This document shows, one piece after another, positions 9,506-23,172 of a stretch of 64,000 bases of DNA. Within the stretch, counting starts at the first letter, position 1; every line of letters begins with the position of its first letter. The notes under the pieces are model-generated. The model ran no database searches. It saw nothing but the letters and a program-made list of their open reading frames with translations, and was not told where the DNA came from. Made by a program: the position numbers and the translations under genes. This DNA comes from Stigmatella aurantiaca (GTDB taxonomy: Bacteria; Myxococcota; Myxococcia; Myxococcales; Myxococcaceae), in assembly GCF_900109545.1 (NCBI RefSeq), contig NZ_FOAP01000002.1:62001-126000 (forward strand), given 5' to 3'.

Positions 9506-11461
9506 ATGTCGGGACGCCAGGTGGGCGGCAGGTACATCCTGGAAAAGAAGATCGCCGGCGGTGGCATGGGTGCCATCTGGCTGGCGCATGATCCCCAGTT
9601 GGATCGCAAGGTCGCGCTCAAGCTGACGACCTCGCTGCGCATCTCCTCGGACTCGGCCCGGCGCCAGTTCGAGCAGGAGGCGCGCGCCATCGCCCATTTC
9701 CGCCACCCGAACGTGGTGCAGATCTACGACTTCGGCCTGGACAAGGGCGAGGACCCGTACATCGTCATGGAGCTGCTCGACGGGGAGGACCTCGAGGCCC
9801 GGTTGCGGCGGCAGCCACAGCTTCCCCCGGGCGCCGTGGCCTCCATCCTGCTCCAGGTGGGCAAGGCGCTAACGGCCGCGCACACGGCGGGGATCGTCCA
9901 CCGCGATCTCAAGCCCGCGAACATCTTCCTGGCCCGTGTCGACGGCGAGGAGGTGGTGAAGATCCTCGACTTCGGCCTGGCGCGGCTGGTGAAGCGCTCC
10001 GAGGATGTCTCCTTCGACACGCCCGCGGACGGGATGATCGGCACGCTGCGCTACATGAGCCCCGAGCAGATCCGGGGCGACCGCGCGCTCGATCACCGCA
10101 GTGATTTGTGGTCCATCGCGGTCGTGATTTTCCGGGCGCTCACCGGGCAGTTTCCCTTCACGCTCGAGCTCGTCGGCCCGCTGCTGTCGGGCACGTTCCA
10201 CCCGCCCGAGACGGCCCCCTCCACGATGAACCTGGGGTTGAGCGCGGAGCTGGACGGGTTCTTCAAGCGCGCGCTGCACCCGGATCCCGCCCTGCGCTTC
10301 GGCTCCTCGCACGAGATGGTGTCCTCCTTCGCCACCCTCGTGAAGACGGCGGAGCGGCCCCAGGCGTGCAAGATCCTCGTGGTGGATGACGAGGCGGACG
10401 TGGAGATGCTGCTCAAGCAGGCCTTCCGCCGGCAGATCCGCGACAACGTCTACCAGTTCCTCTTCGCCTCCGATGGCGAGAACGCGCTGGAGAAGCTGCG
10501 CCAGTCGCCCGACATCGAGGTGGTCGTCACGGACATCAACATGCCGCGCATGGACGGGTTGGCCCTGCTCAGCCGCGTCAGCGAGGCCTATCCGCTCGCC
10601 AAGGTCATCATCGTCTCGGCCTACAGCGACATGACCAACATCCGCACGGCGATGAACCGGGGGGCCTACGACTTCCTGGTCAAGCCGCTGGACTTCCAGG
10701 ATCTGGAGACGACGCTCAACAAGACGCTCCGGCACGTGCGGGAGCTGCGGCAGATGGCGCGCTCCATCAAGGAGAACGAGCTGCTGGCGCTGTTCGTCCA
10801 GAGCACGGTCCTGTCGCTGTTGCGCACGCTCACGCAGGGGCGCGAGGCGCTGGCCGGCGAGCGCGTGGACTCCACCGTGGTGTTCATTGGCCTCAAGGGC
10901 CTCACCGCCGCCACGCGCCACGAGGCGCCCGTGGGCATCATCCAGAAGCTCAACGACAGCCTCCACATCATCGTCCCCGAGCTGACGTCGCGGCAGGGCG
11001 TGGTGGACCGGTTCATGGGCGACACGGTGATGGCCGTGTTCCGGGGCCACGAGCACCTCTACCGGGCGATGGCGGCCTGCATCTCCATCCGCCAGGAGCT
11101 CCAGACGCGCGCCTTCCGCTCGGGCGACGCCTCCCCGTACGCGCATGGGGTCAGCATCGGGCTGGACTCGGGAAAGGTGGTCGCCGGGGGGCTGGGGAGC
11201 CATGATCTCGGACGGCTGGACTACGCCGTGCTGGGGGACGTGGTGACCACCTCCGCGGCCCTGTCCTCGCTGGCGGGGCGGGATCAGATCCTGGTGACCG
11301 AGCGGCTAATCGAGCGATTGGCGGAGCGCTTCCGGTGCCAGCACCTGGGGGCGCGGATGCTCCCGGGGAGCGGTGATCCCGTGAATCTCTACGAGGTCCT
11401 TGGGCCGTACAATATGCCGGCACTGCCCGACGACTCCGCGACCAATCCAAACACGCAGTGA
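9506..11461 (+). CDS. Ser/Thr protein kinase - receiver - degenerate class III cyclase fusion
   Basis: A 651-aa cytoplasmic regulator with three parts. The protein kinase (residues about 8-275) has glycine loop IAGGGMG, ATP lysine K39, HRDLKPAN (D134) and DFG (155-157), all intact. The receiver (about 288-405) has DD at 294-295, phospho-acceptor D343 in VTDINMP and K393 in LVKPLD. The adenylyl/guanylyl cyclase-homology domain (about 453-615) looks inactive: the first metal Asp is Gly462 in VFIGLKGLT, and the GDTVNxAAR motif reads GDVVTTSAA, losing the catalytic Asn and Arg; the second metal Asp (D506) remains. No membrane segment is seen. It lies 81 bases upstream of the decarboxylase-like/FAD cassette on the same strand and may control it. 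Confidence 0.92.
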   Translation: MSGRQVGGRYILEKKIAGGGMGAIWLAHDPQLDRKVALKLTTSLRISSDSARRQFEQEARAIAHFRHPNVVQIYDFGLDKGEDPYIVMELLDGEDLEARLRRQPQLPPGAVASILLQVGKALTAAHTAGIVHRDLKPANIFLARVDGEEVVKILDFGLARLVKRSEDVSFDTPADGMIGTLRYMSPEQIRGDRALDHRSDLWSIAVVIFRALTGQFPFTLELVGPLLSGTFHPPETAPSTMNLGLSAELDGFFKRALHPDPALRFGSSHEMVSSFATLVKTAERPQACKILVVDDEADVEMLLKQAFRRQIRDNVYQFLFASDGENALEKLRQSPDIEVVVTDINMPRMDGLALLSRVSEAYPLAKVIIVSAYSDMTNIRTAMNRGAYDFLVKPLDFQDLETTLNKTLRHVRELRQMARSIKENELLALFVQSTVLSLLRTLTQGREALAGERVDSTVVFIGLKGLTAATRHEAPVGIIQKLNDSLHIIVPELTSRQGVVDRFMGDTVMAVFRGHEHLYRAMAACISIRQELQTRAFRSGDASPYAHGVSIGLDSGKVVAGGLGSHDLGRLDYAVLGDVVTTSAALSSLAGRDQILVTERLIERLAERFRCQHLGARMLPGSGDPVNLYEVLGPYNMPALPDDSATNPNTQ

Positions 11462-11542: not shown

Positions 11543-12349
11543 ATGCAGATGACGAAGACCGAGTCTTCTCTGTTCGATGCCTATCCCTGCACCGAGAAGT
11601 ACGAGCTGTCCTCGGGCGCCGTCTGCGCGGTGCCCTACGTCTGCCGCTCCGCGGACATGCTGGTGCTCCACGGACCGGCGGACCTCGAGGCCGTCCGGGG
11701 CCTGCTCGCGGGGCAGCGCTACCAGCCGGTGTCCATCGGGGGCGGCCAGTGCGCCATGTCGCTCTGGGTGGCGGACTACCACGACACCACGTGTGGGCCT
11801 TACAAGGAGTTCATCGTCGCCTTCATGGTGTCGCTGAAGCCGGTGGAGGTGGCAGTCCACTCTCCGATGGAGATGCTCCAGCCGCTGGGCCATCCGGAGG
11901 TCACCACGTTTTGTTACAAGCTGGTGCTGGATCAGCAAGTGCCCATCGACTTTGGCCGGGAGGTTCACGGCCACGCCAAGCACCCGGCGCCCCAGCCCGT
12001 GAACATCGCCTTCGGCGCCCCGTGGTGCCAGTTCGACATCGCCTGTGATGGCAAGCCGCTCGTTCAGGGCCGCGTCCGCTACCCGGCGGAGCCGGCCAGG
12101 TTCCAGCGGCTCTCCGTGGGCTTCGTCACCCCCAAGGAAGTGTTCCAGACGCGCAACATCATGCACTTCGAGATGGAGTCGCGCCTGCGGCTGTTCGGCG
12201 AGGGGGATGCGTTCTCGCTCTCCGGCGAGAGCCCGCTGGGCCGCGCGCTCGTGCCGCTGAACTACACGCCCCAGGTGGTGCAGTACCTGCCCCGGGTCCG
12301 CTTCGTGATGCCCAAGCCCCTCAACTGGCACGGGCCGGAGGGCCGATGA
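11543..12349 (+). CDS. Acetoacetate decarboxylase-like protein 1
   Basis: A 268-aa protein whose segment at residues 137-148 (FGREVHGHAKHP) aligns with the GRE-x-x-GFPKK active-site motif of acetoacetate decarboxylases. The first Lys (K146) is kept, but the second is His and the usual Phe-Pro is His-Ala, so chemistry may be altered. The following segment starting NIAFGAPW and the C-terminal half fit the same fold. No signal peptide. ATG at 11543 is chosen for GGAGG nine bases upstream. First gene of a four-gene cassette whose members overlap by ATGA. ADC-fold proteins also include cyclases, dehydratases and aldolase-like enzymes in natural-product pathways, so decarboxylation should not be assumed. 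Confidence 0.7.
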   Translation: MQMTKTESSLFDAYPCTEKYELSSGAVCAVPYVCRSADMLVLHGPADLEAVRGLLAGQRYQPVSIGGGQCAMSLWVADYHDTTCGPYKEFIVAFMVSLKPVEVAVHSPMEMLQPLGHPEVTTFCYKLVLDQQVPIDFGREVHGHAKHPAPQPVNIAFGAPWCQFDIACDGKPLVQGRVRYPAEPARFQRLSVGFVTPKEVFQTRNIMHFEMESRLRLFGEGDAFSLSGESPLGRALVPLNYTPQVVQYLPRVRFVMPKPLNWHGPEGR

Positions 12350-13362
12350 GCCCTCCAGGCCGCAAGTACGTCGACCATCCGTCGCTCCAGGTCTTCCCTC
12401 CGCCGAGCCTGTGCCAGGACGTCAACCTGTCCGTCTTCTTCCTCAAGGGGCGGCAGGACCGGCTCCAGGCGCTCTGTGACCGGTTCCTCAACGAGCCCTC
12501 GGGAGGCGCGGTCCACTACCGCCCACGGTTGCCCTTCGTCATGCTGACGTTCCAGCACGTGGGCCGGCTGTCCTCGGAGGCCGAAGGCTTCCGGGACTGG
12601 GGCTTCACCTCCGAGCGCGAGGTGACGTTCTGGATCGCCGCCAGCGACACCCGGCGGCACGGGCCGGATGAGCTGTGCCAGCGCGTGGAGCTCTTCGTCC
12701 CGTACATCTACACGGACAACCCGTGGGCGGTGGCCGGGGGGCGGGAGATCTACGGCTTTCCGAAGCAGGCCGCCGACATCCGCATGCCCGGCACGGGGCA
12801 GGGCGCGGGGGCCTTCGAGGTGCGGACCCTGGCATACCGCACGCTCAGCCCCGGCACGCGGGCCGAGGTGGCCCGGCTGCTGCTGCTGGAGCGGGCGGAT
12901 GGCCAGCCCATGGACATGGACATGGACCTGGGCATGTCCTCGGACACGGACGGCGCCGAGGGCTTCCGGGCGGAGAACCTGCTGCAGCAGGTGAGCGTGC
13001 TCCGGGACGAGCTGGGCTCGCTGCTCGACTTCAACTTCGAGGTGGGCTCGCGCATCCTCGACTTCCTGTTCCGGCCCACCCTGCCCATGGTCTTCCTCAA
13101 GCAGTTCCGCGGGGTGGGGACCCGCACGGACGCGTGCTACCAGGCCATCGTGGGCGCGGAGGCCGACCAGCTCAAGCTCCGGGGGCTGCGGCTGCTGCCC
13201 CGGCGCTTCCGGCTGACGATCGATTCGCTGGCCACGCAGCCACTGGCGGAGGATCTCGGGCTGGAACTCAACTCCCGGGGCCAGCTGTCCATCGCCGGGG
13301 GACTGCAGATCCAGTTCGATTTCCGGATCAACGAAGGACACCTCATCTGGAGCGGTTCATGA
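12346..13362 (+). CDS. Acetoacetate decarboxylase-like protein 2
   Basis: A 338-aa cytoplasmic protein with the clearest ADC signature in the window, GGREIYGFPKQAAD (residues 131-144), in which K140 would be the Schiff-base lysine and the second Lys is Gln. It is about 70 aa longer than its upstream paralogue, mainly at the N-terminus and in an insertion with three ATGGAC codon pairs (12910-12927) encoding Met-Asp repeats. The stretch ending DFRINEGH near the C-terminus is also family-like. ATG overlaps the previous stop (ATGA), and its stop overlaps the next start. With two ADC-like and two FAD proteins translated in series, a multi-step modification of one substrate is likely but uncharacterised. 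Confidence 0.75.
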   Translation: MSPPGRKYVDHPSLQVFPPPSLCQDVNLSVFFLKGRQDRLQALCDRFLNEPSGGAVHYRPRLPFVMLTFQHVGRLSSEAEGFRDWGFTSEREVTFWIAASDTRRHGPDELCQRVELFVPYIYTDNPWAVAGGREIYGFPKQAADIRMPGTGQGAGAFEVRTLAYRTLSPGTRAEVARLLLLERADGQPMDMDMDLGMSSDTDGAEGFRAENLLQQVSVLRDELGSLLDFNFEVGSRILDFLFRPTLPMVFLKQFRGVGTRTDACYQAIVGAEADQLKLRGLRLLPRRFRLTIDSLATQPLAEDLGLELNSRGQLSIAGGLQIQFDFRINEGHLIWSGS

Positions 13363-15530
13363 CGGAGGGCGGTGCGGCGTCACCTCGGAAGAAGGTCGTG
13401 GTGCTGGGGGGCGGTGCCGGTGCGCTGACGACGGCCTATTACCTGTCGAGCACGCCCGAGCTGCGCGCGCGGTACGAAGTCACGGTCTACCAGGTGGGCT
13501 GGCGGCTGGGGGGCAAGGGCGCCAGTGGGCGAGGGCCCCATGGGCGCATCGAGGAGCATGGGCTGCACATCTTCTGGGGCTTCTACGAGAACGCCTTCCA
13601 GTTGATGCGCGCGTGCTACCGGGAGATGAACCGGCCCGCGACGATGCCGCTGGCCACCTTCGAGCAGGCCTTCCTGCCGAGGGACTTGCTGGCCCTGCAG
13701 GAGCTCGTCCACGGCACGTGGCAGCGCTGGGTCATCCCGTTTCCCTCCAACTCCCGCTCGCCGGGGCAGTCCGGCAGCATCGACTCCTCCCAGGAGGTTC
13801 TCGGGGTCCTGTTCCAGACCATCCTGGACCTCTTCAACCGGACCCAGGCACTGCTGGTGGGCACGGCGGCGGAGGGCACTGCGCAGGACTTTCTCGGCAG
13901 GCTCCAGGAGGTGTTGGCGGAGAGCATGGAGCGGGGGGCCGACCTGCTCCTGTCCGTGCGCCTGCTCGTCCAGGAGGGGCAGCGGCTGCTGGAGCAGGCC
14001 CATGTGCGCGTGCTCGCGGTGCTCCGGGGCGAGGTGGAGGCGCGCGGGATGCTGGACGCGGCGCTGCTCGACACGCTGCGCGGCTTCCTGCGCTGGCTGT
14101 GGGCCCGGTTCACGCCCCTGCTGGAGTCGAACTTCCTGCTCTTCCAGATGTGCGTGGGGCTGGACTTCCTGGTGGCCAACCTCGTCGGCATCCTCTCGGA
14201 TCAGGTGTTCGTCCGGGGCTTCAACGCCATCGAGGAGATGGACTACCGCGCGTGGCTGGCGAAGCATGGGGCCAGCGAGCTGACGCTGAAGTCGGCGCTG
14301 TCGCGCACCATCTACGACGCGGCCATGTCCATGGTGGATGGGGATCCCGACTGCCAGGCCATCGGCGCGGGCAGCGCGCTCCGGGCGCTGCTGCGCATCG
14401 GGCTCACGTACCAGGGGCACATCGCCTACGAGTTCGCCGCCTCCATGGGCGACGTCATCTTCGTGCCGCTCTACGAGGCGTGCCGGAAGAACGGCGTGCG
14501 CTTCGAGTTCTTCCACCGGGTGGAGGAGCTGGTCGCGGACGACGTGACGGGCCTGCCGCAGATCCGGCGCATCCGCATCGGGCGCCAGGTGACGCTGAAG
14601 GATCCCTCGCGGGAGTACGAGCCCCTCATCTATGTGAAGAACCTGCCGTGCTGGCCCAGCCAGCCGCTGTGGGATCAGCTCCTGGAGGGCGACAACCTCC
14701 TCCGGGAGGGCATCAACCTGGAGTCCTTCTACACGCCGTGGCGGAGCGTGGAAGAGCGCGTCCTGGAGGCAGGCCGGGACTTCGACCATGTCGTCTTCGG
14801 CATCCCCGTGGCCTCGGTGCCCTTCCTCTGTCCGAGCCTCGTGGAGAAGAACGCCGCGTGGCGGCGGATGGTGGAGCAGGTGGCCACCATCCAGACGCAG
14901 TCCTTCCAGATCTGGACCTCCAAGGACCTGAGCGCCATGGGGTGGACGGTGGGCAGTCCCATGCTCACCGGCTACGTCGAGCCCATCGACACGTGGGCGG
15001 ACATGACGAACCTGCTGCCCCGGGAGGGCTGGGCCCAGCCCAATGCGCCCCGCAACGTGGCCTACTTCTGCGGCCCCCAGCCGGGTCCGCGCCAGCCGCC
15101 CCCCCCGGACGCGCACGCCTTTCCCACGCAGGAGACGGAGCGGGCCCGGCAGGACGCGGTCCACTTCCTGAACCACCACATCGGCGTGCTCTGGCCGCGT
15201 GCCACCCAGCCCCGGGCGCCCGGCGCGTTCGACTGGACGCTGCTGGTGCCCTCGAATGGCGGGGAAGGGGAGGCGCGCTTCGAGACCCAGTACTGGCGCG
15301 CCAACGTGGATCCGAGCGAGCGCTACACGCTGGCCCTGCCCGGCACGTTCAAGGCGCGGATCCGTCCGGACCGGACGGGCTTCGCCAACCTGTCCATCTG
15401 CGGGGACTGGGTGGACAACGGCTTCTACATTGGCGCGGCGGAGGGGGCCGTCATCTCCGGCATGCTCGCCTTCCGCGCCGTGACCGGGCAGCGGCTGCCC
15501 ATCTCCGGTGAGGCGTTCTGGTACCGATGA
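13359..15530 (+). CDS. FAD-dependent oxidoreductase 1 (amine oxidase/phytoene desaturase-like)
   Basis: A 723-aa protein with an N-terminal Rossmann dinucleotide motif (VLGGGAGALTTAYYLS, residues 15-30). It is followed by GWRLGGKGASGR, typical of amine-oxidase/carotenoid-desaturase flavoproteins, and EEHGLHIFWGFYENAF. The C-terminal cofactor-binding signature ICGDWVDNGFYIGAAEGA closes the fold. Desaturases are usually 450-550 aa; the extra length is a helical insertion about residues 130-300. The frame is open far upstream of 13359, but only from this ATG does family sequence begin, and it overlaps the previous stop. Its closest visible relative is the next gene. Substrate unknown; a hydrophobic or polyene molecule would fit the family. 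Confidence 0.8.
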   Translation: MTEGGAASPRKKVVVLGGGAGALTTAYYLSSTPELRARYEVTVYQVGWRLGGKGASGRGPHGRIEEHGLHIFWGFYENAFQLMRACYREMNRPATMPLATFEQAFLPRDLLALQELVHGTWQRWVIPFPSNSRSPGQSGSIDSSQEVLGVLFQTILDLFNRTQALLVGTAAEGTAQDFLGRLQEVLAESMERGADLLLSVRLLVQEGQRLLEQAHVRVLAVLRGEVEARGMLDAALLDTLRGFLRWLWARFTPLLESNFLLFQMCVGLDFLVANLVGILSDQVFVRGFNAIEEMDYRAWLAKHGASELTLKSALSRTIYDAAMSMVDGDPDCQAIGAGSALRALLRIGLTYQGHIAYEFAASMGDVIFVPLYEACRKNGVRFEFFHRVEELVADDVTGLPQIRRIRIGRQVTLKDPSREYEPLIYVKNLPCWPSQPLWDQLLEGDNLLREGINLESFYTPWRSVEERVLEAGRDFDHVVFGIPVASVPFLCPSLVEKNAAWRRMVEQVATIQTQSFQIWTSKDLSAMGWTVGSPMLTGYVEPIDTWADMTNLLPREGWAQPNAPRNVAYFCGPQPGPRQPPPPDAHAFPTQETERARQDAVHFLNHHIGVLWPRATQPRAPGAFDWTLLVPSNGGEGEARFETQYWRANVDPSERYTLALPGTFKARIRPDRTGFANLSICGDWVDNGFYIGAAEGAVISGMLAFRAVTGQRLPISGEAFWYR

Positions 15531-17692
15531 GCGACAGGGTGGGACAGACGGGGCGCCAGGGCCGCAAGCGCAGGATCGTCATCCTGGGCGGTGGCGTGGG
15601 CGCCATGACGGCGGCGTACGGGCTGACGAGCGCCCCCGGGTGGAAGGACCAGTACGAGGTCGTCCTCTACACCCTGGGCTGGCGGCTGGGCGGCAAGGGC
15701 GCCAGTGGCCGCAACGCGGACGTGGCCCAGCGCATCGAGGAGCATGGCCTCCATGTGTGGATGGGCCACTACGAGAATGCCTTCCGGATGATGCGCCAGG
15801 TCTACGCGGAGCTGGGCCGCCGCCGGGGGGCGCCGCTGGCCACGCTGGAGGAGGCCTTCAAGAAGCAGTCGCTCATCACCCTGTTCGAGCGCACCCCCCA
15901 GGGCTGGGTGGACTGGAACTTCCACTTCCCCACCAACGCGAAGGAGCCCGGGCAGGGGGAGGGCATGGAGCCGCATTCGCTGGCCGATGCCCTGGACCGG
16001 GGGCTTCAGCTGCTCGTGGATCAGCTGCGCGGCGCGCCAGGGGCGGGCCTCGCGGCGGCGACCCCTCCGCCCGAGTCGTTGCCCGCCCAGGTCGAGGGGG
16101 TGATGCGCTCCCTGGGGCTGCCGCTCCTGCCGAGGCTCGGGGCGCCGGGAATTGGCCGCACGCTCCAGCTCGCGCAGCAGCTCGCCGCCCGGCTCCCGCG
16201 AGGACAGGGGGCGCAGGACTCGAACCACCTCCAGGCGATCCTCTGGCTCATCGAGGAGGCCTGGGGCCGCCTGTCGGCGCGCGTCGTGCGCCAATGGGAG
16301 GACAGCGCCGTGCGCAAGCTCTGGTCCGTGCTGGAGCTGGGGCTCGTCATCGCCCGGGGCATCCTGCGGGACCGGGTGCTGGAGACCGGCTTCAACGGCA
16401 TCGATGGCGAGGACTTCCGGGCCTGGCTCGCGCGTCACGGCGCCAGCGACTTCACGCTGTACCGGGCCCCCCTCGTCCCGGGCATGTACGCCCTGCTGTT
16501 CGCTTACGTGAAGGGCGACCCGGCCCACCAGTCCCTGGCGGCGGGCGTGGCCACGCGCTTCCTGCTGCGCATGGGGATCACGTACAAGGGCGCCATCTTC
16601 TACAAGATGCGTGCGGGCATGGGGGATGTGGTGTTCGCGCCCCTCTACGAGGTGCTGAAGCGGCGCGGGGTGGAGTTCCACTTCTTCCACAAGGTGGACC
16701 AGCTCCGGGTCAACTCGCTCACGCGCAACATCGACCGGGTGGAGATGACGCGCCAGGTGACGCTGAAGGACCCGGCGGCCGGTTACCAGCCGCTCGTGGA
16801 CGTGCTCGGCTTGCCGTGCTGGCCCGACCGGCCCCGCTACGAGCAGCTCGTCGAGGGCGAGCAGCTCCAGGCCTCCCGCATCAACCTGGAGTCCGCCTGG
16901 GCGCCCCGCGGGAAGAGCGAGCAGTACCTCACCCTGGAGCGGGGCCGGGACTACGACTTGCTCGTCATGGGCATCTCCCTGGGGGCCTTCCCCCACGTGG
17001 CCGGGGAGCTGATGGAGCACAGCCCGCGCTGGCAGCGGATGGTGGAGGCGCTCCAGACGAACCAGACGATGGGCGTGCAGCTGTGGCTGTCACGCAGCCT
17101 GGAGGGGCTGGGCTGGCAGGAGGAGCCCACGGTGTCCACCACCTACGCCGAGCCGGTGAACACCTACGCGGACATGTCCCAGCTGCTTCCCCGGGAACCG
17201 TGGCCCGCGGGCACCGTGCGCAACCTGGCCTACTTCACCGCGCCGTTCACCGACGCCCCGGAGATTCCGCCCTTCACCGACACGGACTTTCCCCGGCGGG
17301 AGCACGCGCGGCTCAAGGAGATCGCCCTGCGCTGGTTCCGGGAGTGGACGGGCGCGCTGTGGCCCCATGCGACGGGCTACAACCCCACGGCCCTGAACTG
17401 GGAGCTGCTCGTGGACCTGGACGGCGCCCGCCGGGGCGTGGACCGCTTCGACAGCCAGTTCTGGAAGGCCAACATCGATCCGTCCGAGCGCTATGTGCTG
17501 TCGCTGCCGGGCTCCACCGAGGCCCGGCTCGGCTCGCACGACTCCGGGTATAACGGGCTGTACCTGGCCGGTGACTGGACGCTCACGGGGCTCAACTGCG
17601 GGTGCGTGGAGGCGGCGGTGATGTCCGGCCTCCAGGCCGCCCAGGCCATCTCCGGCACCCCGGCGCACATCTCCGGGGAGAGCGACTTCTAA
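15527..17692 (+). CDS. FAD-dependent oxidoreductase 2 (amine oxidase/phytoene desaturase-like)
   Basis: A 721-aa paralogue of the preceding protein. It shares VILGGGVGAMTAAYGL at the N-terminus, GWRLGGKGASGRN, EEHGLHVWMGHYENAF, the central FNxID/E-x-x-DxRAWLxxHGAS segment and the closing AGDWTLTGLNCGCVEAAV. Identity is moderate across the whole length, so this is an old duplication with probable specialisation. The middle insertion (about residues 150-290) differs most and is Pro/Ala-rich here. ATG overlaps the previous stop (ATGA). It is the last gene of the cassette; a GC-rich hairpin follows at 17699-17720, and the next gene is convergent. No signal peptide or membrane span. Confidence 0.8.
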   Translation: MSDRVGQTGRQGRKRRIVILGGGVGAMTAAYGLTSAPGWKDQYEVVLYTLGWRLGGKGASGRNADVAQRIEEHGLHVWMGHYENAFRMMRQVYAELGRRRGAPLATLEEAFKKQSLITLFERTPQGWVDWNFHFPTNAKEPGQGEGMEPHSLADALDRGLQLLVDQLRGAPGAGLAAATPPPESLPAQVEGVMRSLGLPLLPRLGAPGIGRTLQLAQQLAARLPRGQGAQDSNHLQAILWLIEEAWGRLSARVVRQWEDSAVRKLWSVLELGLVIARGILRDRVLETGFNGIDGEDFRAWLARHGASDFTLYRAPLVPGMYALLFAYVKGDPAHQSLAAGVATRFLLRMGITYKGAIFYKMRAGMGDVVFAPLYEVLKRRGVEFHFFHKVDQLRVNSLTRNIDRVEMTRQVTLKDPAAGYQPLVDVLGLPCWPDRPRYEQLVEGEQLQASRINLESAWAPRGKSEQYLTLERGRDYDLLVMGISLGAFPHVAGELMEHSPRWQRMVEALQTNQTMGVQLWLSRSLEGLGWQEEPTVSTTYAEPVNTYADMSQLLPREPWPAGTVRNLAYFTAPFTDAPEIPPFTDTDFPRREHARLKEIALRWFREWTGALWPHATGYNPTALNWELLVDLDGARRGVDRFDSQFWKANIDPSERYVLSLPGSTEARLGSHDSGYNGLYLAGDWTLTGLNCGCVEAAVMSGLQAAQAISGTPAHISGESDF

Positions 17693-17698
17693 GCCCCG

Positions 17699-17720
17699 CC
17701 CCCCGCTCAGGCGCGGGGGG
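17699..17720. terminator. GC-rich hairpin between convergent genes
   Basis: CCCCCCGC (17699-17706) pairs perfectly with GCGGGGGG (17713-17720) across a six-base loop. It sits exactly between the FAD oxidoreductase stop and the stop of the convergent giant kinase, so it could end transcription in both directions. No T-tract follows, so intrinsic termination is uncertain. Confidence 0.4.
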
Positions 17721-20700
17721 TCTGGGAGCGGGGGCCGCTGGGCAGCACCACGATGAACTCCGCGTACTGGCCCTCCTCGGACTCCACCACCAGCTTGCCC
17801 CCCAGGGAGACCACGACGATGTCGTGGCTGATGGACAGGCCCAGCCCGGTGCCTTCCCCGGTGGGCTTGGTGGTGAAGAACGGGGTGAAGAGCTTCTCGC
17901 GCGCCGCCTGTGGAATGCCCTGGCCGTTGTCCCGGACCCGGATCTCCACGTTGCTGCCCGTCCACCGGGTGGACACCTTCACCCGGGGCTCCTCGACGGG
18001 CTCGGCGGGGCGGACCTTGTCGCTCGCCGCATAGCAGGCGTTGTCCACCAGGTTGAGCACCACCCGGCGGATGTCGTCGGACACCAGGTCCACCTCGGGC
18101 ACCTGGGTGTCGTAGGAGGTCTCGATGACGACGTTGCGACGGGAGCTCTTGGCGTTCAGGCCGTGGTGAACGAGCCGGACGGCCTCCTCCACCAGCTGGT
18201 TCACGTTGGTGCGCCGCCGCTCGCCCCGGTTGCTGCGCGCGTGCTGGAGCATCCCGTCGATGATGCCGCTGGCGCGCTGGCCGTGCTCGCGGATCTTCTG
18301 GGTGTTCAGCTCCAGCTCGTCCAGCAGGGTGTTGAGTTCCTCCTGCTGCCGGTCGATCTGCGGCTTGTCGAGGCCGGGCTGGAGCAGCGGGCGCATCTCC
18401 TGGCGCAGCTCGCGCACCCGGTCGGTGGATAGCAGGGCGAAGTTGGTCACGAAGTTGAGCGGGTTCTTCAGCTCGTGGGCGATGCCGGCGGTGAGCGAGC
18501 CCAGGGAGGCGAGCTTCTCCTGGGTGACGATCTGCGCATGCATGGTCTTGAGCGTCTCGAGCGCCCGGTGCAGCTCCGCGTTCTTGCTGTGCAGCTCCTG
18601 CGTCCGGTCCGCGACGCGCTCCTCCAGCGTGTGGCTGTAGTCCTCCAGCCGCCGGTACAGCTCCGCGTTCTCGATGGAGATGGAGGCCTGGGCGGTGAGC
18701 ATGCCCAGCACCTTGAGCCGGCTGGCGTTGAAGGCCCCCGGCGTCAGGTTGTTCTCCAGGTAGAACAGCCCAAGCGTCTGCCCCCGGTGGCGGATGGGCA
18801 TGCAGAGCACCGAGCGGACCCCGTTGCGGATGACGTACTCGTCATTCTGGTAGGGGGCCGTGGAGGAGGCATCGTCCAGGAGGACCGGCGTCCCGGCGCG
18901 CAGGGCCTGCTCGACCACGGGGCGGCACAGCGCGCTGCTGTGGGAGAGCAGGTGGGGCGGCTCCGGCGCCATGTCGCGGCGCCGCACCTCGCCCGAGGCC
19001 TCGACGAAGTAGTCCGCCCCGCGCTTGAGCGCCAGCACCCCGCGCTGGGCCCCGGCGCTCTCCATGATGACGTGGATGAGGTTGTCGACGAGCTGGGGGA
19101 AGAGGATCTCGCTGGAGATGGCCTGGGAGGCCTTCATCGCCGAGGCCATGTCCAGGGACTCGACGAGCGACTCGGAGTTGGTGGGCGAGGTGGGGGAGGT
19201 GGGGTGCGTGTTGGGGTGCGTGCTCGGCTGGGTGCTCGGGTGGGTGGTGGCCCCGCGCTCCGTGGCCGTCGTCCCGCCCCGGGCCTTGGGGTTCCAGTAG
19301 CGCAGCGTGGAGCCCTGGGACATGAGCAGGTTGGACTGCTCCTGCGTCAGCAGCCGGGTCTTGCCCGTGGCGCCCCAGCGCTCGTAGGCGTAGAGGGCCT
19401 CCAGCAGGTAGGCGGAGGCGATGATGCGGCGCTCCCGGGTGGTGAGGAAGCGGAAGGTCAGCTCGCACGCCAGCGCCTCCACGCCCAGGAACCCGCTCTC
19501 TCGCGCCGCGGCGATGGCCCGCTCGAAGGTGACGAGCGCCTCGTCGTCGTGCCCCTTCGCCTGGGCCTTCTCCGCGCTGACCAGCAGGAAGTAGGGCGCG
19601 AAGCTCCCGGGGTTCCGGCGGGCGCACTTCTCCAGGAAGGCCCGGTGCCGCTCGGCCACCTGGAGCAGCTCCTCGCGGCGCTCCTCGCTCGCCCCCGTGG
19701 AGACGGCCACCGCGCTCAGCGCGTGGTAGAAGGCGAAGGTGGCCACCTGGAACAGGCCGGCCACGAAGGGCAGCAGCGGCTCGGCCTCCTCGGCCTTCGC
19801 CAGCGCCTCCTGCGGGGTGCTCAGCAGGTAGAGCCGCTCCAGCTCGCCCAGCGCCTGGTAGGCCCGGGCCGTGTTCCCCTCGCTCCGGGGCGTGCTCTGG
19901 AGCAGGGGCTCCTCGCTGCCGGTGAGCGCCAGCACCGTCCGGTGGGCCGCCAGGAACATCTCCAGCGCATCCGGATCCCGCTTCGTCTGGAGGAACTCGA
20001 TGAAGCGGCCGTTCTCCGCCTGGAGCTCCTTCAGCGGATCTCCCACCGCGAGGCGGCGCCACAGCCGGACGATGACGCAGTGTCCCGCGTAGATCCAATC
20101 GCCGCTCTCCATCGAGCCCTTGTAGGCCTCGGTGAACTCGCTGATGCCCTCGCGGGCGTTGCGCGTCCAGTGATCGATGAGCCCCGCGCGCAGGTAACGG
20201 ACGCGGGCGTGCAGCATGGGCGCCCGGAAGCGCGCGGACAGCTCCACGGCGAGCTGGCCGAACTCGCTGCCCGTGGCGGGATCATCAATGACGGAGGACA
20301 GCAGCACGCCGTAGATGACGTAGCCGAAGGCGGACAGGCTGCTGTGGCCATGCTCCAGGGAGATCCGGACGATGCGCAGCGCCAGCAGCGCGAAGAGCCC
20401 CTGATGGACCATGTACGCGGAGGCCGCGATGCTGGCCAGCAGGTTGAGCGCGAGCTCCTGGTTGGGATCGCTCATGGGCGGCAGCCCGAGCAGCGCCGCG
20501 GCCCGGCGGCCCTGGAGCCGCTCGGCCACGGCGGTCAGCTCCTGGCCCAGCTCCGCCTGGCCCGGCTCCGCGGGCAGGTCCACGCCCAGCAGCCGCAGGC
20601 CCTCCAGGCCCAGCTGGATGGCCTCCGTGTGCTGGCTGTTGAGCGAGGCCAGGGTGGCCCGCATCGCGAGCACGTCCGCCTTCTGCGCCACGGAGCGCGC

Positions 20701-23172
20701 CTGCTCCAGCAGCGTGGCGAAGCCCGTGGAGGCCGCGGCGAAGTCCCCCGCCAGGTAGCTGGACTCGGCCAGCTCGAGCTGGAGCGGGAGGATCCGCTCG
20801 TACTCGTCCCGCCAGGCGGTGACGTCAAGCAGCGCGATGCCGGTGCGGAACAGGTTGCAAGCGGTGCGGTAGGCCCCCGAGGCCTTCGCCTGGCGCCCGG
20901 CCTTCAAGTGCAGGTCCGCCAGCTCCTGGCGCAGCGCCGCGGTGCTCACCTGCTCCGGGGCGTAGGCCACGTGCGGCAGGATGTTGAAGGCCCGCGCTTC
21001 GATGGCCCCTACCGCCCGGGCATCCTCCAGCAGCCGCAGGCCGATCTGCGTGTGCCGCCCGGCGCGCTCCTCCGGGGGGAGCTGCAGGTAGGCCGCCTGG
21101 CGGACGCGCTCGTGGAGGAAGCGGAAGGTCAGCTCCAGATCCGCCGGCAGGACGAGGCCGCCCTGGGGATCCAGCAGCAGGTAGTCCTTGCTGAGGGGGA
21201 GCACGAGCCCCTGCTCGATGGCGCTCCACAGCGTGCGCGCGGTCTCCGCCGCCGTGGCCTGGCGCACCACGGTCAGGTCCTTGAAGTGGAACACGCTGCC
21301 CAGGCAGGCCGCGTACTGGAGCACCTCCGTGGTCTCCGGCGGCAGGCGGCGGATCTCGGCCGCCATCAGGTCCGCCACGTCGTTGGGAATCTCCCGGGCG
21401 TCGATCTGCGCGAGATCCCAATCCCACCGGCCCGCGCTCGCGTCGAAGCGCAGCAGCCGCTGGTCGTGCAAGAAGCGCAGGAACTCGCGCACGGAGAAGG
21501 GGTTGCCGCCGGTGCGGGCATGGAGGAGCTGGCCCAGCTCCAGCGCGTTCAGGGGCTCGGCGGAGGTCGCCTCGCGCACCATCCGCACCACCTCCTCGAT
21601 GCCGAGCGGGGAGACGCGGATCTCCTGGAAGGGGCTCTCGGCGGAGCGCAGGCTGGCCAGGGCCTGCTCGAGCGGATGAGAGGGGGAGAGCTCCGTGCTC
21701 CGGTAGGCGCAGAGGAGCAGCAGGTGGTGGCTGTCGGGCTCGCACGCCAGCGACTGCATCCACGAGAGCGTCGCGACGTCCGCCCACTGGAGGTCATCCA
21801 GGAAGATGACGAGCGGGCGCTCGGGCCGCGTGAAGGCCTGGAGCGCCTGCACGAGCACGCGGTTGAGGCGGTTGCGGGACTCGGAGGACGGGAGCGGGGT
21901 GGGCGGGGGCTGCTCACCCAGCAGCGCGCGCACCTCCGGGACGGCCTGGACGAGCACGGACGTGTTTACGCCCAGCGCGTCCTTCAGGCTCCGCTGGACG
22001 CGCGCCGTCTCCGGGCCGCCCTCCTCGCGCATCTGCTGGACGAGGTGGTTCAGGACTTGATGGACGGCGTCGAAGGGCACCCCGCGCTGGAGCGGATCGC
22101 ACTTGCCCGTGGCGAACAGGCCCTGGCGGGCGGCGGTCACCCGGTGCAGCTCGTTGACGAGCGACGACTTGCCAATGCCCGGCGAGCCGGTGATGAAGAG
22201 CAGCTCGCTGCTGCCCTTCACGGCGCGCTCGTGGGCCTCCTTCAATTGATCGACGTCCGCGGCGCGCCCGTAGAAGCCCTGGGGCAGGCGGAACTGATGG
22301 GTCCGGTCCGAGGTGCCCAGCGGAAAGGACGAGACGAGCTGCCATTCCTTCAGGCGGCGCCGGCACTCCTCCAGGTCCGCGATGAGGCCGAAGGCCGTCT
22401 GGTACCGGGCCTCGGGATCCTTGGCGAGCAGCTTGACGACGATGGCGGAGATCGGCTCCGGGAGGGAGGGCACCAGCTCGCGGGGCGAGGGAGGCATCTG
22501 CGCCACGTGGGCATGGAGCAGCTCCAGCGGCGTCTCGGACTCGAAGACGTGGCGGTGGGTGAGCAGCTCGAAGAAGGTGGCGCCCAGCGCATAGAAGTCC
22601 GCGCGGTAGTCCACGCCGCGGTTCATCCGCCCCGTCTGCTCGGGCGCCATGTAGGCCAGGGTTCCCGTGAGCACCGTGGGGTTGTCGGGGGTGACGGCCT
22701 CCACCGCGATGGCCACCGAGATGGAGAAGTCGGCGATCTTCAGCAGCCCCGTGTCGGGGTTGACGATGATGTTCTGCGGCTTGATGTCCTTGTGGATGAC
22801 GCCATGCCGGTGGATGTGCCCCAGCGCCGTGGTGATGCGGATGGCGTAGTCGAGGAACGTCTCCACCCCCAGCGCCCCGCGCTCCTCCAGCAGGTGGTGG
22901 AGCGAACGGCCGCCGAAGTCCTCCAGCACGAGCGCGGCCCGGTCGGTGAACTCCTCCACGCCGAACACCTGGATGATGCCATCGCCCTCCACGCGGCGGG
23001 CGATGGCGTACTCACGCTGGATCTCCAGGGTGCGGCGCCGGTCCAGGTAGTCGCTGCCGGGCAGCTTGAGGATGACGGGGCACTCATCCTTGAGCCGCGT
23101 CGCGCGGACGAGCATCGAGCGCGAGCTCTCGTGAATCGTCTCGTGGAAGGTGTATCCCGCCCGACTGGCCAT
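17707..23172 (-). CDS. Hybrid Ser/Thr kinase - AAA ATPase - TPR - GAF - histidine kinase
   Basis: A 1821-aa cytoplasmic signalling protein. The N-terminal Ser/Thr kinase (about 8-275) has K36 and catalytic-loop HKDIKPQN (D129), but DFS (148-150) instead of DFG. A predicted P-loop ATPase follows (GSPGIGKSS at 329-337, FLDDLQWAD as Walker B), then about 600 residues of helical TPR-like repeats. A low-complexity linker rich in His/Pro/Ser/Thr leads into a GAF domain (about 1370-1530) and a C-terminal histidine kinase with H1566 in AHELKNPLN, N-box Asn1707/Asn1711, DNGQGIP and GTGLGLS. This trifunctional architecture is common in myxobacteria and cyanobacteria. The signal is unknown. It is convergent with the FAD cassette and may sense related metabolism, which is speculation. 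Confidence 0.93.
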   Translation of the reverse strand: MASRAGYTFHETIHESSRSMLVRATRLKDECPVILKLPGSDYLDRRRTLEIQREYAIARRVEGDGIIQVFGVEEFTDRAALVLEDFGGRSLHHLLEERGALGVETFLDYAIRITTALGHIHRHGVIHKDIKPQNIIVNPDTGLLKIADFSISVAIAVEAVTPDNPTVLTGTLAYMAPEQTGRMNRGVDYRADFYALGATFFELLTHRHVFESETPLELLHAHVAQMPPSPRELVPSLPEPISAIVVKLLAKDPEARYQTAFGLIADLEECRRRLKEWQLVSSFPLGTSDRTHQFRLPQGFYGRAADVDQLKEAHERAVKGSSELLFITGSPGIGKSSLVNELHRVTAARQGLFATGKCDPLQRGVPFDAVHQVLNHLVQQMREEGGPETARVQRSLKDALGVNTSVLVQAVPEVRALLGEQPPPTPLPSSESRNRLNRVLVQALQAFTRPERPLVIFLDDLQWADVATLSWMQSLACEPDSHHLLLLCAYRSTELSPSHPLEQALASLRSAESPFQEIRVSPLGIEEVVRMVREATSAEPLNALELGQLLHARTGGNPFSVREFLRFLHDQRLLRFDASAGRWDWDLAQIDAREIPNDVADLMAAEIRRLPPETTEVLQYAACLGSVFHFKDLTVVRQATAAETARTLWSAIEQGLVLPLSKDYLLLDPQGGLVLPADLELTFRFLHERVRQAAYLQLPPEERAGRHTQIGLRLLEDARAVGAIEARAFNILPHVAYAPEQVSTAALRQELADLHLKAGRQAKASGAYRTACNLFRTGIALLDVTAWRDEYERILPLQLELAESSYLAGDFAAASTGFATLLEQARSVAQKADVLAMRATLASLNSQHTEAIQLGLEGLRLLGVDLPAEPGQAELGQELTAVAERLQGRRAAALLGLPPMSDPNQELALNLLASIAASAYMVHQGLFALLALRIVRISLEHGHSSLSAFGYVIYGVLLSSVIDDPATGSEFGQLAVELSARFRAPMLHARVRYLRAGLIDHWTRNAREGISEFTEAYKGSMESGDWIYAGHCVIVRLWRRLAVGDPLKELQAENGRFIEFLQTKRDPDALEMFLAAHRTVLALTGSEEPLLQSTPRSEGNTARAYQALGELERLYLLSTPQEALAKAEEAEPLLPFVAGLFQVATFAFYHALSAVAVSTGASEERREELLQVAERHRAFLEKCARRNPGSFAPYFLLVSAEKAQAKGHDDEALVTFERAIAAARESGFLGVEALACELTFRFLTTRERRIIASAYLLEALYAYERWGATGKTRLLTQEQSNLLMSQGSTLRYWNPKARGGTTATERGATTHPSTQPSTHPNTHPTSPTSPTNSESLVESLDMASAMKASQAISSEILFPQLVDNLIHVIMESAGAQRGVLALKRGADYFVEASGEVRRRDMAPEPPHLLSHSSALCRPVVEQALRAGTPVLLDDASSTAPYQNDEYVIRNGVRSVLCMPIRHRGQTLGLFYLENNLTPGAFNASRLKVLGMLTAQASISIENAELYRRLEDYSHTLEERVADRTQELHSKNAELHRALETLKTMHAQIVTQEKLASLGSLTAGIAHELKNPLNFVTNFALLSTDRVRELRQEMRPLLQPGLDKPQIDRQQEELNTLLDELELNTQKIREHGQRASGIIDGMLQHARSNRGERRRTNVNQLVEEAVRLVHHGLNAKSSRRNVVIETSYDTQVPEVDLVSDDIRRVVLNLVDNACYAASDKVRPAEPVEEPRVKVSTRWTGSNVEIRVRDNGQGIPQAAREKLFTPFFTTKPTGEGTGLGLSISHDIVVVSLGGKLVVESEEGQYAEFIVVLPSGPRSQTPRA

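Follow-up and report, generated by a model that had tools for sequence, protein, structure and literature searches.

Four consecutive genes in a stretch of Stigmatella aurantiaca DNA form a single unit that brings together two proteins of the acetoacetate decarboxylase (ADC) superfamily and two flavoprotein oxidoreductases (FAD1 and FAD2). Throughout, the window means that whole stretch of 64,000 nucleotides. Our proposal is that the four genes together specify a single enzymatic module. Its substrate would be long, hydrophobic and most likely isoprenoid-derived, and would be tailored by flavoenzyme oxidation and then by ADC Schiff-base chemistry; we regard the case for this proposal as evenly balanced. 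Both folds are known. What is new, relative to the literature searched, is their coupling in one module. As the original prediction had supposed, that literature yielded no characterised pathway composed of an ADC and a phytoene-desaturase-like flavoenzyme. The genes and their surroundings are as follows.

9506 to 11461, forward strand: signalling protein with Ser/Thr kinase, receiver and class III nucleotide cyclase domains (Pfam); flanks the cassette and is associated with it.
11543 to 12349, forward strand: ADC1, ADC-superfamily protein of 268 aa (PF06314, 30.8 bits; cut-off 29.8).
12346 to 13362, forward strand: ADC2, ADC-superfamily protein of 338 aa (PF06314, 36.3 bits; cut-off 29.8).
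13359 to 15530, forward strand: FAD1, flavoprotein oxidoreductase of 723 aa with a predicted phytoene desaturase fold (Pfam and NCBIfam matches; predicted structure).
15527 to 17692, forward strand: FAD2, second flavoprotein of the FAD1 family, 721 aa, anciently diverged (40% identity to FAD1).
17693 to 17720, no strand: GC-rich inverted repeat seen by eye, possible bidirectional terminator.
17707 to 23172, reverse strand: signalling protein of 1821 aa with Ser/Thr kinase, AAA_16, GAF and histidine kinase domains (Pfam); flanks the cassette and is associated with it.

The cassette extends from position 11543 to 17692. Its boundaries, the four protein lengths and the ATGA overlaps at all three junctions (positions 12346, 13359 and 15527) are as originally described. 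The kinase-receiver-cyclase gene ends 81 bases before ADC1 starts. FAD2 is convergent with the gene for the 1821-aa protein, and the inverted repeat lies at the two convergent stops. A terminator scan that required a T-run did not list this repeat, and a scan for σ70-type promoters gave no match.

The order ADC1-ADC2-FAD1-FAD2, between the same two signalling genes, is found in seven myxobacterial genomes. These are the window's own genome, five congeners and one genome of another genus (locus L008 is the same locus as that of genome G041). An eighth genome, that of the congener G040, has the same two signalling genes directly adjacent, 58 bases apart. The encoded proteins are 63% (9506–11461) and 70% (17707–23172) identical to those of the window. 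The region fetched between them contains no FAD or ADC gene, and no FAD match was found genome-wide. In a tree of three flanking proteins, G040 is nested within the carriers and fully supported there. Hence, a single loss of all four genes is probably the simplest account. Estimates of dN/dS (Nei-Gojobori, three pairwise comparisons) were ~0.14–0.40, consistent with purifying selection on the cassette. With dN/dS low, and with orthologues keeping order and length in seven genomes, the four open reading frames are genuine genes. The view that they form one unit is upheld by their identical order and joint loss. The genome search that had been suggested for the ADC-ADC-FAD-FAD neighbourhood thus found these genes together outside the window too.

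Both flavoproteins match the Pfam families NAD_binding_8 and Amino_oxidase and, weakly, the NCBIfam models for HpnE and phytoene desaturase. A structure was predicted for FAD1 (pLDDT 85.5, built from twelve sequences). Foldseek and VIA-align both ranked rice phytoene desaturase (5mog) first; its Z was 28.0, and the runner-up reached 23.0. The alignment covered residues 7–712 of FAD1, with 452 aligned. By fold, the FAD1 model thus resembles plant-type phytoene desaturases; by TIGR02731 score, neither protein belongs to them (28.5 and 17.2 bits for FAD1 and FAD2; cut-off 569.4). The original prediction had drawn attention to a helical insertion. The FAD1 model has one, consisting of five helices (residues 144–280, with low pLDDT in part). 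This stretch varies in length and is nearly absent from the 607-aa protein L102_6. No other part of the family alignment varies as much, so the insertion is not a defining feature of the family.

The ancestry of the flavoproteins was examined using a tree of 30 family members. A joint clade of FAD1 and FAD2 was rejected (AU p 0.0018); a wider group that adds L087_5 was not (p 0.071). Two cross-phylum clades, A and B, are well supported (100/100 and 100/98). Members of both occur together at single loci (L015, L081, L096 and L102, from Nevskia, Azospirillum and two myxobacterial families), so distinct FAD paralogue pairs recur. Placement of FAD1 in either clade was rejected (p 0.039 with A, 0.007 with B). 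Placement of FAD2 was not (p 0.26 with B, 0.051 with A). ADC1 and ADC2 share 17% identity and fall in different clades of the ADC tree. ADC1 groups with a 305-aa ADC of genome G080 (support 99/96), and most of the ADC domains that are fused to a FAD share ADC2's side of the tree. Local tandem duplication was therefore discarded for both pairs, as their members are not closest relatives. Judged by these trees, each pair represents ancient paralogues. The original interpretation stands in part: the unit, a hydrophobic substrate and the absence of a known pathway in the literature searched are retained. Duplication within the operon, and with it two parallel copies of one step, is not supported by the trees.

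Turning to the ADC proteins, both exceed the PF06314 cut-off. The predicted ADC2 structure (pLDDT 71.7, built from seven sequences) matched 12 ADC-superfamily entries at Z 16.9–19.6, against 4.5 or less for unrelated entries. A search of solved structures with the ADC1 sequence gave no match. On the models, then, the folds of FAD1 and ADC2 are as assigned. The alignment confirms that each ADC keeps one motif lysine and has replaced the second, by His in ADC1 (GREVHGHAKH) and by Gln in ADC2 (GREIYGFPKQ). Across several phyla, the Schiff-base lysine motif is present in every aligned ADC except that of L139. Where the motif is recognisable, the first lysine is always kept and the second never is. 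The adjacent pair of true acetoacetate decarboxylases (GFPKK in 3c8w and 3bgt) is thus replaced by GHAKH and GFPKQ in the cassette. Because the second lysine is absent, decarboxylation may not be the reaction. We also noted a Met-Asp repeat in ADC2 (MDMDMDLG, within 12900–12970 of the window). At this point the protein is ten residues longer in the window's genome and G038 than in other orthologues.

Fusions connect the two kinds of protein directly. The ADC domain is C-terminal to the flavoprotein at twelve loci (L013, L079, L095, L096, L098, L099, L104, L105, L107, L108, L139 and L146) and N-terminal at two (L088 and L153). L015 carries two FADs in one frame. Fusions of FAD and ADC, in both orders, are spread across Myxococcota, Pseudomonadota and Actinomycetota; from this we infer that the two kinds probably work together on one molecule. 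We joined loci at 50% FAD identity to give 32 lineages. An ADC was fused to the FAD, or lay within four genes, in 15 of these. The domain HMMs behind this count, and behind those for signalling genes and polyprenyl synthases given below, were built from members of the same loci. Among 156 more distant genes used as a control, none matched an ADC, a signalling protein or a polyprenyl synthase. Genes on unannotated loci were called by an in-house script, checked on the window only. The remaining 17 lineages have no ADC nearby, and some of the genomes concerned have no PF06314 match, so FAD enzymes can act without an ADC. All ten ADC-positive relatives, which are phylogenetically non-independent, were among the FAD-positive genomes. 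Likewise, all nine plasmid records with an ADC2 homologue also have a FAD homologue. G080 (locus L096) has an ADC of either type together with two FADs; one FAD is fused to the ADC2-side ADC, and the ADC1-type gene is separate. Judged by sequence, this repeats the composition of the window's cassette in another arrangement.

Three observations fit the supposition that the substrate is hydrophobic: the modelled flavoprotein has a desaturase fold, polyprenyl synthases occur next to related FAD genes, and a FadL-type protein is encoded between cassette-related genes of Azospirillum. Polyprenyl synthases lie nearby in 4 of the 32 FAD lineages and occur in Myxococcota, Actinomycetota and one Pseudomonadota locus. 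On dereplicated lineages this linkage is no more than suggestive (p 0.07). Of the neighbours scanned in the window, none was a polyprenyl synthase, a terpene cyclase or a hopanoid gene. The FAD1 model also matches amine oxidases, amino-acid oxidases and a fatty-acid isomerase in fold, at Z ~20–23; hence, resemblance to phytoene desaturase, as modelled, does not fix the substrate. An isoprenoid is the reading that we favour as most likely.

Several related loci have other companions. A third FAD family member in the window's genome lies on contig C14 in a separate cluster (L090:1237-12568) with a polyprenyl synthase and a kinase-cyclase-AAA_16 protein. Clusters of this type also occur in seven other genomes of the same bacterial family, and most copies include a saccharopine-dehydrogenase-like protein. 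Small proteins adjoin the polyprenyl-synthase-type loci (L090:2268-2936, L140:11131-11898, L009:12292-13026 and L143:6020-6682). Each seems to consist of helices and then a region rich in beta structure. They are putatively phasin-like, and scans against Pfam and NCBIfam matched none of them. In one protein at L144, a stretch resembling them comes before the polyprenyl synthase. Azospirillum and Massilia each have genes for ethanolamine ammonia-lyase next to FAD family genes (L081:9615-11815 and L018:12131-14320); the Azospirillum annotation names them eutB and eutC. In Bacteroidota, similar proteins of 279–304 aa are encoded beside the FAD gene (L014:9102-9986, L080:14228-15064 and L149:8049-8960); the one scanned, from L014, had no family match.

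In the module that we propose, FAD1 and FAD2 would act on different positions of the substrate, or at different stages, by oxidation or desaturation. The single conserved lysine of the ADC-fold proteins would then form a Schiff base with a carbonyl of the flavoenzyme product. Decarboxylation, dehydration or retro-aldol cleavage could follow. Plant NXD1, which belongs to the ADC family, has been linked to neoxanthin and to lipid droplets. The cassette ADCs might similarly be non-catalytic, binding a hydrophobic ligand and presenting the flavoenzyme substrate or receiving it, as perhaps NXD1 does. An NXD1 homologue annotated as ADC-family, all0736, is listed in PMC12923008 among the proteins of carotenoid-rich lipid droplets in Anabaena. 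Fusion to a FAD is compatible with a partner role, and the second lysine is never kept. However, mere binding would not need the Schiff-base lysine and GRE motif, which nearly all aligned ADCs carry across phyla, and we think a purely binding role improbable. The choice of substrate can be questioned in the same way. ADC chemistry acts on beta-keto acids, and the cassette could thus handle a fatty-acid or polyketide beta-keto compound; the product could then be, for example, a ketone acting as a volatile or pheromone of myxobacteria. The FadL-type gene beside the Azospirillum copy would suit such a substrate. So would the fatty-acid isomerase and oleate hydratase among the structural matches of FAD1 (Z ~19.7). 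Rice phytoene desaturase, however, stands clear of the other entries at Z 28, and it is polyprenyl synthases that recur nearby; the neighbour sets scanned contain no fatty-acid or polyketide synthase genes. A beta-keto substrate accordingly seems to us improbable as well.

A further explanation, compatible with hydrophobic tailoring, has the enzymes serve a signalling system, as either its output or its input arm. Their product would be sensed by the AAA_16 cyclase or kinase, or the enzymes would themselves be controlled by cyclic nucleotides. Linkage to signalling genes does recur. Of the 32 lineages, 17 have a gene for an AAA_16 or cyclase/kinase signalling protein within four genes of the FAD; among the 156 distant genes there is none (p ~2e-14 with a conservative background of one hit, for lineages that share deep ancestry). 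At L102, an ADC with an N-terminal cNMP-binding domain (L102:11612-12940) sits beside two FAD genes. At L079, a fusion gene, a cyclase-AAA_16 gene and a Crp/Fnr gene are consecutive. Conversely, G040 lacks the cassette yet retains both of the signalling genes that flank it elsewhere. Kinase-AAA_16-GAF-histidine-kinase proteins are also abundant, each of these genomes having at least 12 matches, which weakens the argument from adjacency in myxobacteria. We therefore hold this explanation, and with it the idea that the signalling proteins nearby control the enzymes, as tentative and somewhat unlikely. Anti-phage defence was considered and set aside: PADLOC matched none of the four cassette proteins, and the only models it assigned to the signalling proteins, whether flanking or related ones, were for kinases or class III cyclases.

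Returning to the hydrophobic-tailoring module, a bolder version can be stated. A desaturase-like flavoenzyme and an ADC-fold Schiff-base enzyme, in a widespread but rare system, would make an isoprenoid-derived hydrophobic signal or stress metabolite tied to cyclic-nucleotide or AAA_16-kinase signalling. We consider this version unlikely as a whole. The FAD family is rare: it was found in 22 of 195 genomes sampled from the window's phylum, and in 5 of 398, 6 of 396 and 3 of 296 in the phylum samples around L010, L009 and L014, where copy numbers from the large scans are lower bounds as two or three candidates were scored per genome. Since an ADC and a desaturase-type flavoprotein are fused in either order across several phyla, a two-step reaction can be predicted that is absent from the literature searched. 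The pathway is accessible through culturable hosts such as Stigmatella-type myxobacteria and Azospirillum, and may bear on the unexplained role of NXD1 in carotenoid metabolism.

Comparison with known systems places the cassette close to several families. Rice phytoene desaturase (5mog) has the flavoprotein fold of the FAD1 model, and its N-terminal FAD motif region is matched by sequence. However, identity is 17%, and FAD1 exceeds it by ~250 residues and carries a helical insertion that varies within the family. HpnE (TIGR03467) is the best NCBIfam match of FAD1 and FAD2 (38.9 and 57.6 bits), yet both are far below the cut-off of 283.05 and the best matched stretch is the N-terminal region only. 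NXD1 and all0736 share with the cassette an ADC-family protein, here one found in carotenoid-rich lipid droplets; the likeness to ADC1 and ADC2 is one of family annotation, and the portion of PMC12923008 used mentions no flavoprotein fusion. The acetoacetate decarboxylases 3c8w and 3bgt resemble the ADC2 model (Z 19.6 and 18.9) and share the GRE..GFPK lysine motif. They differ in that the cassette ADCs have no second lysine, are 14–17% identical and are fused to, or paired with, flavoproteins. Finally, the ADC-like aldolase-dehydratases and MppR (4zbo/6eej, 5upb and 4jm3) have the fold of the ADC2 model (Z 17–18). Their identity to ADC2 is ~15%, and we know of no flavoprotein fusion among them, but they provide a precedent for other Schiff-base chemistry on the ADC fold.
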